Position numbers and translations under genes: made by a program. A stretch of DNA of 64,000 bases from Methanoculleus sp. (lineage in GTDB: Archaea; Halobacteriota; Methanomicrobia; Methanomicrobiales; Methanoculleaceae): contig NZ_JAJGBK010000024.1 of the NCBI RefSeq assembly GCF_020696975.1, positions 1-64,000 on the forward strand, given 5' to 3'. Shown in pieces: positions 25,985 to 58,029 of the stretch (position 1 is the first letter of the stretch; every line of letters starts with the position of its first letter). The notes beneath the pieces are model-generated. The model made no database searches. It was not told the DNA's origin and worked only from the letters and a program-made list of their open reading frames with translations.

Positions 25985-27058
25985 TTACTCTTCGATCACA
26001 ACGACAGGCTTGATGAGGTCGCGCGGCTTGTCCTTCATCAGGAGCAGAGCCTTCTCGAGGTTCTCAAAGCCCTTGAACCTGTGAGTCAGCATCGGAGAGA
26101 GGTTGAGCTTGCCGGTCTCAACGAGGCTTGCGAGTTTCTCCATCCGCAGCCTGCCGCCGGGCATCAGACCGCAGTGGATGAACTTGTGGCTCATACCGCA
26201 GCCCCACTCGACACGCGGAACAAGGACGTTCTCGCCCGAGCCGAGGTAGTTGACGTTTCCGATCTTTCCGCCGGGCTTGACCATGCGGACCGCCTCGCCC
26301 ATGGTCTTCACGTCGCCGCCGGCGATACAGACCTTGTCGACGCCCTTGCCGTCGGTCTTCTCGAGAACCTGCTCGACGATGTCACCGTTCTTGTAGTTGA
26401 TGATATCGGTCGCGCCGTAGCCTCGTGCTGCGGTTGCACAGTCCGGCCTGCTGCCGACCGCAAGGATGTGGGACGCACCCATCAGGTTTGCACCGGCAAC
26501 ACTCATCAGTCCGACAGGGCCGATACCGATACAGCAGACGGTGTCGCCGAGTTTGATGTCAGCAAGTTCTGCTGCGTGGAACCCGGTCGGAACCATGTCG
26601 GTGATCATGGTCGCTTCTGCTACCGGGATGGAGTCCGGGAGCTTCGCGAGGTTTCCATCCGCCTCGTTGACGTGGAAGAGCTCGCCAAAGACACCGTCCT
26701 TGAAGTTCGAGAACTTCCAGCCGGCAAGCATGCCACCGGAGTGCGTCGCGAATCCTGCCTGCGCTTCAATGGTCATCCAGTCGGGAGTGATTGCCGGGAC
26801 GATAACGCGGTCGCCGGGTTTGAAGTCTTTCACCATTGAACCGACTTCAACGACTTCTCCGACGGCTTCATGGCCCAGAATCATGTCAGTGCGTTCCCCG
26901 ATTGCTCCCTCCCACACGGTGTGGATATCAGAGCTGCACGGTGCAGCTGCAAGCGGCTTAACCAGTGCATCCAGCGGACCGCACTTGGGTGCTTCCTTCT
27001 CGATCCATCCGATCTCGCCGATCTTGCGCATCGCAAGTCCTTTAATTGTTTTTGCCAT
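25985..27058 (-). CDS. NADP-type secondary alcohol dehydrogenase (zinc MDR)
   Basis: A 357-residue zinc alcohol dehydrogenase closely resembling the Thermoanaerobacter isopropanol dehydrogenase. The catalytic zinc ligands are in AAPCSSDIH, LGHEAVGEVVEVG and TDMVPTGFH. The four-cysteine structural zinc lobe is absent, as in that group. The Rossmann turn GIGPVGL is followed by VGSRPDC and a later YGATDIINYKNG, the Ser-Arg...Tyr set that favours NADPH. It would oxidise secondary alcohols such as 2-propanol for hydrogenase-free methanogenesis, a trait known in several Methanomicrobiales. The start at MAKTIKGLAM is preferred over an ATG five codons earlier. Its mRNA has a leader of about 135 bases with three hairpins. 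Confidence 0.93.
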   Translation of the reverse strand: MAKTIKGLAMRKIGEIGWIEKEAPKCGPLDALVKPLAAAPCSSDIHTVWEGAIGERTDMILGHEAVGEVVEVGSMVKDFKPGDRVIVPAITPDWMTIEAQAGFATHSGGMLAGWKFSNFKDGVFGELFHVNEADGNLAKLPDSIPVAEATMITDMVPTGFHAAELADIKLGDTVCCIGIGPVGLMSVAGANLMGASHILAVGSRPDCATAARGYGATDIINYKNGDIVEQVLEKTDGKGVDKVCIAGGDVKTMGEAVRMVKPGGKIGNVNYLGSGENVLVPRVEWGCGMSHKFIHCGLMPGGRLRMEKLASLVETGKLNLSPMLTHRFKGFENLEKALLLMKDKPRDLIKPVVVIEE

Positions 27059-27082
27059 GGTATGTCCATCCATTTGTCTGTC

Positions 27083-27155
27083 CGTGAGCCTCTGGCTCAC
27101 GCGGGCCTCATGAGCGTTGCTCATGGACCTGTGCCGATCGGTACGCTTCCGATCG
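27083..27155 (-). promoter_or_regulatory. Triple-hairpin leader of the alcohol dehydrogenase gene
   Basis: Three perfect stems stand in tandem. From the 5' side of the mRNA they are CGATCGG/CCGATCG with a 7-base loop (27135-27155), CATGAGC/GCTCATG with a 3-base loop (27109-27125), and CGTGAGCC/GGCTCACG with a 3-base loop (27083-27101). They occupy most of the untranslated leader between the TATA box and the start codon. This may be an RNA stabiliser, an attenuator or a ligand-binding leader. It is not a riboswitch class I know. Confidence 0.5.
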
Positions 27156-27213
27156 ACAACTGAACCACGACCGGATGTACAACCGACATGATAGTCCAAT
27201 ATCCGGCCCACCC

Positions 27214-27222
27214 ATATATAAT
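27214..27222 (-). promoter_or_regulatory. TATA box of the alcohol dehydrogenase gene
   Basis: An AATTATATATGG-like element read on the minus strand, in otherwise GC-rich DNA. It places transcription start near 27192, about 135 bases before the ATG of the dehydrogenase. Confidence 0.5.
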
Positions 27223-55804: not shown

Positions 55805-55862
55805 GATGTGATGCACATCAAATCAAAAAGATGATATTCTGCACCACAAATGTGTATACATG
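55805..55862 (+). promoter_or_regulatory. Promoter and possible operator of the RHH-acyl-CoA synthetase gene
   Basis: GATGTG-ATG-CACATC is a perfect inverted repeat at 55805-55819. An AT-rich box (AGATGATATTC) lies about 27 bases before the ATG, so the mRNA may be leaderless. TGCACC at 55840-55845 and the palindrome TGTATACA just before the ATG lie between box and start. The encoded protein has its own DNA-binding domain, so autoregulation is a natural guess. Confidence 0.35.
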
Positions 55863-57698
55863 GTGCGATATTCGGTCACGATGGACGACAACCTCGTGAA
55901 GGCGATCGACAGGATGCGCGAATTCCGCGGGATGTCGCGGTCAGAATGGCTCAACGAACTCTGCATGACCCATCTTGATGGTGCATCCGGGAACGGCGTG
56001 CAGACCGCGGTCCCCGTGGGGGCACCGCCGGGAAGTGTTCTGGGGCCGAACATGACCGATTACGAGGCCGCCTGCGCCAACTTCAAGATCGACGTCCCCG
56101 AGCACTTTAACTTCGGCTACGACGTGATCGACCGGTGGGCCGAGACCGACCGGAACAAACTTGCCATGATCTGGGTGGACCAGGAGGGAAATGAGCGGAA
56201 GTACTCCTTCCGGGACCTCAGATACCTCTCGAACGGCGCCGCGAACATCCTCCTCAAATACGGCATCAAGAAGGGCGACCGGGTGATGCTGATGCTCCCG
56301 AGGATCCCGGAATGGTGGATCTTTGTCATCGCGCTCATCAAGCTCGGGGCTGTCTTCTGCCCCTGCCCGACGATGCTGACCCCGAAGGATATCAAATACC
56401 GTGTGCAGGCCGGAAAGTTCCGGATGATCATCACCAACAGTGAGAACGCCGGGAAGGTCGACGAGGTCGCGAACTCCTGCCCGCTCCTCGACACCCTCTT
56501 CCTCGCGGATGGAGAGCGGGAGGGATGGGCGAGTTACCCGCACGAGCTCGAGTACCCTGCACCGGTATCGCACCACACGGTCAGCATGCCGGTCGCGAAG
56601 AAGACGAAAGCGACCGACCCGATGCTGATCTACTTCACCTCCGGCACCACGGGGGAGGCCAAGATGGTGCTCCACAACCAGAGTTACCCGCTCGGGCATA
56701 TCATCACCGCCTCGCTCTGGCAGGACATCACGGCAAACGACCTCCACCTGACTTTCTCGGATACCGGGTGGGCGAAGTGCGCCTGGGGCAAGATCTTCGG
56801 CCAGTGGATCGCCGGAGCCTGCATCTTCGTCTACGACATCCGGGGGAAGTTCGGTGCGACCGAGCTCCTCCCGCTGATCGAGGAGTACGAGGTGACCACG
56901 TTCTGCGCACCGCCGACGGTCTACCGGATGCTGATCCTCGCCGACCTCGACAAGTTCGACTTCCGCTACCTCCGGCACTGCTGCAGTGCCGGGGAGCCGC
57001 TCAATCCCGAGGTGATCCGCGTCTGGGAGGACGGCACCGGCCAGCCCATCTACGAGGGTTACGGCCAGACGGAGACCGTCTGCTGCATCGCCACGTTCCC
57101 CTGCATGAAGCACAAGCCCGGCTCCATGGGAAAACCCGTCCCCGGCTGGCATATCGAGCTCCACGACGATGACGGCAACCCGGTCGGCGTCGGCGAAGAA
57201 GGGCGGATCGCCGTCAAACTCGATCCCCGGCCGGTCGGGCTCTTTGTGGAGTACCTGGACAACCCCGAGGCGAACCGCGAGTCGTTCCAGAACGGGTTCT
57301 ACTACACCGGCGACAAGGCATGCATGGACGAGGACGGCTACTTCTGGTTCATCGGGAGGAGCGACGACGTCATCAAGTCGTCCGGGTACCGGATCGGGCC
57401 GTTCGAGGTCGAGAGCGCGCTCATGGAGCACCCGGCCGTCCAGGAGGCAGCGGTCGTCGGGTCGCCTGACCTCATCCGGGGGATGGTCGTCAAGGCCTTT
57501 ATCGTCCTGAAACCCGGCTACCAGCCATCCGAGTCGCTGGTCAAGGAACTCCAGGCCCACGTCCGGAACACCACCGCCCCGTATAAGTATCCCAGAGCAA
57601 TCGAGTTCGTCCAGGAACTCCCAAAGACCATCTCCGGTAAGATCCAGAGGAACGTCCTGCGGGACCAGGAACTACAGAAGAGCAACAACGGGAACTGA
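55860..57698 (+). CDS. RHH domain fused to AMP-forming acyl-CoA synthetase
   Basis: A 612-residue protein. Residues 1-42 (RYSVTMDDNLVKAIDRMR then RGMSRSEWLNELC) are a ribbon-helix-helix domain like those of CopG/NikR-type repressors. From about residue 65 a complete medium-chain-type acyl-CoA synthetase follows: FTSGTTGEAKMV near 260 for ATP, YEGYGQTETVC near 400, YTGDKACMDEDGYFWFIGRSDD near 482 and the catalytic lysine in KTISGKIQRN near 593. Reaction: acid + ATP + CoA to acyl-CoA + AMP + PPi. Methanomicrobiales need acetate or branched acids, which it may activate. The frame is continuous through the linker. DNA binding by the N-terminal domain is inference. Confidence 0.88.
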   Translation: MVRYSVTMDDNLVKAIDRMREFRGMSRSEWLNELCMTHLDGASGNGVQTAVPVGAPPGSVLGPNMTDYEAACANFKIDVPEHFNFGYDVIDRWAETDRNKLAMIWVDQEGNERKYSFRDLRYLSNGAANILLKYGIKKGDRVMLMLPRIPEWWIFVIALIKLGAVFCPCPTMLTPKDIKYRVQAGKFRMIITNSENAGKVDEVANSCPLLDTLFLADGEREGWASYPHELEYPAPVSHHTVSMPVAKKTKATDPMLIYFTSGTTGEAKMVLHNQSYPLGHIITASLWQDITANDLHLTFSDTGWAKCAWGKIFGQWIAGACIFVYDIRGKFGATELLPLIEEYEVTTFCAPPTVYRMLILADLDKFDFRYLRHCCSAGEPLNPEVIRVWEDGTGQPIYEGYGQTETVCCIATFPCMKHKPGSMGKPVPGWHIELHDDDGNPVGVGEEGRIAVKLDPRPVGLFVEYLDNPEANRESFQNGFYYTGDKACMDEDGYFWFIGRSDDVIKSSGYRIGPFEVESALMEHPAVQEAAVVGSPDLIRGMVVKAFIVLKPGYQPSESLVKELQAHVRNTTAPYKYPRAIEFVQELPKTISGKIQRNVLRDQELQKSNNGN

Positions 57699-57807: not shown

Positions 57808-57884
57808 TATCGCCGTGAGGGGGGTGGGGACAGGGGAGGGGGGAGTATCCCTCCTCCCCGTCAGCCCCTCCCCAAATGGCGATA
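57808..57884. repeat. Palindromic G/C-run element with TATCGCC/GGCGATA ends
   Basis: TATCGCC at one end and GGCGATA at the other enclose an imperfect palindrome of G- and C-runs including GGGGAGG...CCTCCCC. The same core 20-mer and end motif are found at the left edge of the window. The gene-free stretch 57699-58098 around it otherwise contains only AT-rich sequence and a hairpin. Confidence 0.5.
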
Positions 57885-58029
57885 GCCACCTGAAAGCCGT
57901 GTTAGCGATGCGATCTCCACAGCAAACCTAAGATTATCAAACCTTGGCCCCCCCGTTCGCTGCACCACTCCCTCAAAAAACGCACCGCCCCAAAGGACTA
58001 AGAAACCGGGAGCTAGGCCCCCCTCGCTC

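Follow-up and report, generated by a model that had tools for sequence, protein, structure and literature searches.

The DNA analysed here, 64,000 nucleotides from Methanoculleus sp. and referred to below as the window, carries the gene of an NADP-type (zinc) secondary alcohol dehydrogenase, and upstream of it a promoter and a predicted leader with several hairpins (Table 1). The nearest solved proteins were T. brockii-type NADP-dependent isopropanol/secondary alcohol dehydrogenases which, together with the orthologues, upheld the enzyme identity given in a sequence-only reading of the same DNA. When 232 Methanomicrobiales genomes were searched, a close orthologue (at least 85% protein identity) was found in seven Methanoculleus genomes, its own included. 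The relatives within the genus include named Methanoculleus, and the Methanocorpusculum parvum orthologue was 87% identical to the window dehydrogenase. The gene neighbourhoods of the seven Methanoculleus orthologues were of at least three different kinds: some had helicase/phosphoesterase neighbours and a divergent transposase, as in the window, and the remaining ones were accompanied by a different transposase (one), a transporter (one) or npdG (one). In Methanocorpusculum and in Methanoculleus genome G065, npdG was located after the dehydrogenase gene, an arrangement that fits a transfer of NADPH, produced by the dehydrogenase, to F420, the functions being those expected of the protein families. 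The divergent DDE transposase of the window (PF01609, 27440-28903) has its intergenic region in common with the dehydrogenase gene, and this pair was kept in three other Methanoculleus genomes; a small ABM-domain protein (PF03992, 28938-29240) is encoded near the transposase.

Table 1. Features of the dehydrogenase gene and its predicted leader, in window positions
Feature	Position	Strand	Remark
TATA box TTATATATG	27213..27221	-	3' end 23-24 nt before start of conserved block
Predicted transcription start	27187..27193	-	from TATA spacing and onset of conservation
Possible upstream ORF, 22 codons, MSVVHPVVVQLSIGSVPIGTGP	27121..27189	-	start at or near predicted +1
P1 5' arm TGTCGGTTGT	27179..27188	-	partner 27132-27141
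P2 5' arm TCCGGTCG	27168..27175	-	partner 27148-27155
P2 3' arm CGATCGGA	27148..27155	-	doubles as H1 5' arm
P1 3' arm CCGATCGGCA	27132..27141	-	doubles as H1 3' arm
Hairpin H2, GGTC CATGAGC (AAC) GCTCATG A GGCC	27104..27129	-	compensatory changes within Methanoculleus
Hairpin H3, CGTGAGCC (AGA) GGCTCACG	27083..27101	-	compensatory changes at two pairs, 5 cells
Conserved GGATGGACA just 5' of start codon	27063..27071	-	likely ribosome-binding region (putative SD role)
NADP-type (zinc) secondary alcohol dehydrogenase gene	25985..27058	-	357 aa, ATG at 27058; from ORF and orthologues

The Methanoculleus relatives had a TATA box in the matching place, 21-24 nt before the conserved block, and the conserved sequence set in where transcription is predicted to start, about 21-24 nt past this box. 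Most primary transcripts of Methanolobus have 19-22 nt between the TATA box and the transcription start site (PMC5378194). The predicted leader between this start and the ATG is about 130 nt long and contains the hairpins, which had been placed between the TATA box and the ATG from the sequence alone. The motif GGATGGACA was kept in most Methanoculleus copies, and its Methanocorpusculum counterpart was GGATGTGACA. A search of the minus strand for an intrinsic terminator or attenuator revealed no T run after any leader stem. Reading the dehydrogenase ORF further upstream, in frame into the leader, was rejected because this frame was closed in several relatives.

The three perfect inverted repeats that had been described between 27083 and 27155 are present on the minus strand, both in the sequence and on RNA folding: CGATCGG/CCGATCG (H1, with a 7-nt loop and a stem extendable to 9-10 bp), CATGAGC-AAC-GCTCATG (in H2) and CGTGAGCC-AGA-GGCTCACG (H3). 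The predicted RNA fold of 27080-27160 consisted of exactly three hairpins, with an energy of -43.5 kcal/mol (z = -5.1, reached in 0 of 200 shuffles). The further claim that such a row is not due to chance was also borne out. Counting three non-overlapping perfect hairpins (stem at least 7, loop 3-8) inside 80 nt as a triple, this was the only one in the 64-kb window, and 60 Markov-shuffled windows gave one (about 0.02 expected). By raw folding energy the segment was among the top 0.4% of 81-nt windows, a rank matched by windows richer in G+C (16/4736). Among all 81-nt RNA folds, the one at 57808-57888 was the most stable in the window (-60.5 kcal/mol); it is located shortly after the ORF at 55860-57698, and the repeat finder detected no simple inverted repeat of at least 12 nt in it.

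Conservation in relatives of the gene had been named beforehand as one of the points on which the interpretation depended, and the leader was found with all seven close Methanoculleus orthologues. The stems had a mean pairwise identity of 85.6%, compared to 56% for loops and linkers, 65% for fourfold sites in the gene and 44% for the DNA upstream of the promoter. As the stems were conserved while the loops drifted, it is the stems that are under selection and not the loops. An eighth, diverged copy of the leader was found in Methanoculleus G068 (L125, G068:C153) directly before npdG (TIGR01915; F420:NADP oxidoreductase); the dehydrogenase gene was not found in this genome, its start having decayed from ATG to AAG. 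Dehydrogenase paralogues at 62% identity were without the leader, and distant orthologues (L014-L016; families f4 and f5) had single hairpins near the start with model scores at noise level.

Which of the stems are maintained as pairs was examined by covariation. Pairs 77-93, 78-92, 102-118 and 106-114 (alignment A1) of H2 and H3 carried double changes. When the whole leader was folded with RNAalifold, H2 and H3 stayed, whereas H1 gave way to a longer P1 (TGTCGGTTGA/TCGATCGGCA) and P2 (TCCGGTCG/CGATCGGR). The Methanocorpusculum leader for the same enzyme opens with the P1-P2 design too (GUUGAUUGGU/AUCAAUCGAC and UUUGAUCA/UGAUUGAA). In the joint alignment of the two genera, 94.7% of the P1-P2 cells were paired, with 12 double-change cells, compared to 83.3% for the local H1. 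Significance was evaluated against a tree-aware null, a simple scheme devised for this analysis in which the observed substitutions were moved to random branches of the gene tree. With only 7-12 sequences and partly hand-trimmed alignments, H2 and H3 together exceeded this null for cells paired (p = 0.006) and double changes (p = 0.002), as did P1-P2 across both genera (p = 0.010 and 0.002) and H3 alone (p = 0.035 and 0/1000). No significance was reached by H2 alone (p = 0.24), by P1-P2 within Methanoculleus only (p = 0.20) or by the local H1 (p = 0.096). Many of the changes in P1-P2 were one-sided (G-C/G-U), and template-switch repair is another process that can maintain perfect palindromes in G+C-rich DNA. 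The compensatory pairing expected of a structured cis-acting 5' UTR RNA was thus found in the orthologue leaders for H2 plus H3 and for P1-P2, and the leader structure is fairly well supported by this comparison. Two of the three stems originally drawn, H2 and H3, kept their pairing; the first was probably misdrawn, because P1-P2 was kept in two families and the local H1 was not, and it more probably forms one half of a longer hairpin at the 5' end, P1-P2, which begins at 27188. A long-range GTGTC/GACAC pairing suspected in Methanocorpusculum was dropped, as its 5' half precedes the predicted start.

A covariance model of P1-P2 (R2) detected 13 strong sites in the 232 Methanomicrobiales genomes, eight in Methanoculleus and five in Methanocorpusculum. 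Twelve were directly upstream of the dehydrogenase gene; the remaining one preceded npdG, at a locus whose dehydrogenase start has decayed. One of the 13, the site of Methanocorpusculum genome G043, was outside the training set of the model and scored 55.7 bits. In this genome (L214) the dehydrogenase gene is split into two pieces in different frames, and the leader hairpin is intact. The next R2 match in the order was inside the coding region of a cobalamin gene and was taken as chance. No further family emerged from a phylum-wide scan of 393 genomes, which gave one weak match (G529, E = 4e-4), and neither a DNA search nor the P1-P2 model revealed a convincing second copy of the leader in its own genome. 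Judged by these searches, P1-P2 is a gene-specific cis element and not a regulon or a known riboswitch. One contig filed under 'Bacilli bacterium STD2_52' (L044) was nearly identical to Methanocorpusculum parvum upstream of the dehydrogenase gene and is therefore probably a binning error.

The Methanocorpusculum dehydrogenase leader has no H2 and H3, and this half of the leader, at least, is therefore not essential. A second model, R1, also matched many sites in Methanocorpusculum, which were copies of an interspersed palindromic repeat of two tandem hairpins. This dispersed repeat (GTCCACGAGC..GCTCGTGAGACGTCTCAAGAGCC..GGCTCTTGGAC) was present in up to 12 copies per genome (L126, L127, L140-L142, L144-L147, L128, L129), and a variant at L231 had the same tandem-hairpin design in a different sequence. 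The repeat resembles H2-H3 in its two tandem hairpins, overall inverted symmetry and similar sequence, and the two have a common pairing with many double changes. Their alignment score was 23, compared to 18 for the best of 20000 random double hairpins, a probability weakened by the search over many genomes. The repeats differ from H2-H3 in being multicopy, dispersed and not before the dehydrogenase gene, whereas H2-H3 of Methanoculleus is one copy in the leader; the related repeat was multicopy in Methanocorpusculum only. The several copies in one genome that mark a mobile REP/MITE-like element were not seen for H2-H3, which occurs once in its own genome. The simplest account would be a capture of such a repeat element by Methanoculleus, as H2-H3, between P1 and the ribosome site, although convergence on GAGC/GCTC stems could account for the similarity instead. 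If the link is true, it would provide a concrete example of a leader recruiting a mobile hairpin. The same similarity is what speaks for H2-H3 being a fixed, functionless relic of a palindromic repeat, with its compensatory changes produced by DNA-level quasi-palindrome repair. To such a relic we give little credence, since H2-H3 is single-copy and at the same position in eight Methanoculleus species, its stems are conserved far above loops and flanks, and its G-U pairs remain uncorrected.

Control by alternative structures was considered for the 5' half. The arms of H1 are exactly one P1 arm and one P2 arm, and therefore the two Methanoculleus folds S1 (H1, H2, H3 and P0, in which ATCATCC pairs with the GGATGG ribosome-binding region) and S2 (P1-P2, H2 and H3, with the ribosome site free) would be mutually exclusive. 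ATCATCC and GGATGG were conserved in most Methanoculleus copies. The predicted energies of S1 and S2 differed by no more than about 4 kcal/mol in six of the seven species which, given the overlapping arms, makes a switch under metabolite, protein or temperature control formally possible. We nevertheless regard such a switch as rather unlikely: the covariation of H1 and of the RBS-closing helix P0 (p = 0.52) did not go beyond the tree-aware null, and RBS accessibility varied between species and was not consistently low. On these two grounds, P0 and accessibility, RBS masking was rejected as a conserved feature. Like the riboswitches of Rfam 15, the element is a structured leader of a metabolic gene, but it has no conserved unpaired core; loops and linkers lacked aptamer-like conservation and were less conserved than fourfold sites. 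A gathering-threshold scan with Rfam 15 returned tRNAs only and no riboswitch family, in agreement with the earlier statement that no known class fits. The accompanying suggestion of a ligand-binding RNA regulator found no support, as loops and linkers change no more slowly than expected under neutrality.

The earlier reading had also proposed operators for a protein, that is, inverted repeats bound by a transcription factor shortly after the promoter. The palindromes are indeed near the predicted start, and the P1 arms share a CGATCGG-like sequence in two families. However, the arms change compensatorily and through G-U pairs, which would spoil a DNA dyad and which preserve pairing rather than sequence. 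In addition, the P1 arms are about 38 bp apart, and the conserved dyad recurring at co-regulated genes was not seen, as the genome of the window had a single strong site. Operators are accordingly very improbable. An upstream ORF, possibly leaderless and overlapping the hairpins, could act as a leader peptide through attenuation or reinitiation. Its ATG was found at the predicted +1 in all eight Methanoculleus copies and its stop at the same place in six of them. The insertion in the window is of 3 nt, AS2H carries two compensating indels, and the frame-0 similarity score was above column shuffles (p = 0.031). Against it, the synonymous excess was not significant (p = 0.18), the frame was broken in M. 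thermohydrogenotrophicum with the stems intact, the P2 loop, which lies within the ORF, drifts freely, and Methanocorpusculum lacks an ATG at the corresponding place; we assign this ORF a small probability only.

The explanation that we prefer, and to which we give about an even chance, is that the secondary-alcohol-dehydrogenase mRNA has a structured, untranslated 5' leader specific to this gene, predicted to protect the message and to tune its translation. Taken more broadly, the leader is very probably a genuine RNA element for control or protection. Computation shows its position, its conservation, the covariation of its base pairs and its gene specificity; we infer that it is transcribed and that it works through stability or translation. 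Transcription would start about 25 nt past the TATA box, so the mRNA would open almost directly with a two-tier hairpin of P1, an internal loop of 2 x 4-6 nt and P2. In Methanoculleus, the short hairpins H2 and H3 would follow, and then the ribosome-binding region. The base-paired 5' end may make the transcript less prone to 5' end-dependent decay, and the linker that precedes the start codon may be held in a set conformation by the row of hairpins, such that the life of the message and the translation of this catabolic enzyme would be tuned by the leader. A structural role is proposed because the stems are conserved and the loops free, P1 lies at the 5' end, and neither a U run nor conserved RBS masking was found; unconserved loops are expected of a structural and not of a ligand-binding element.

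To our knowledge, few cis-acting leader RNAs have been described in methanogens, and none for secondary-alcohol use was found in Rfam or in the literature searched. In a cold-adaptive methanogen, long mtaA/mtaC 5' UTRs contribute to transcript stability (Cao et al. 2014, as cited in PMC5378194). As far as that citation describes them, these leaders share with the dehydrogenase leader a methanogen host, a catabolic gene, their length and a proposed role in transcript life. They differ in gene, order and sequence, and the evidence there is experimental whereas it is comparative and structural here. Archaeal L7Ae is regulated translationally through a 5'-leader k-turn, the leader being reportedly unstructured until the protein binds and the RBS then being occluded (PMC6298567). 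Both are archaeal leaders with RNA structure near the ribosome site, but the dehydrogenase leader has strong stems, its RBS occlusion is not conserved, and no k-turn was seen by eye. A more far-reaching version, a new archaeal regulatory leader RNA in which the secondary-alcohol catabolism of Methanomicrobiales is governed by an ancestral two-tier hairpin at the 5' end through its alternation with an RBS-masking fold, and into which Methanoculleus took up a mobile H2-H3 repeat, seems distinctly unlikely to hold as a whole. The dehydrogenase leader is compact, specific to one gene and kept in two families; should it determine how long the message lasts or how it is translated, it would offer a way to learn how isopropanol oxidation is turned on in methanogens.
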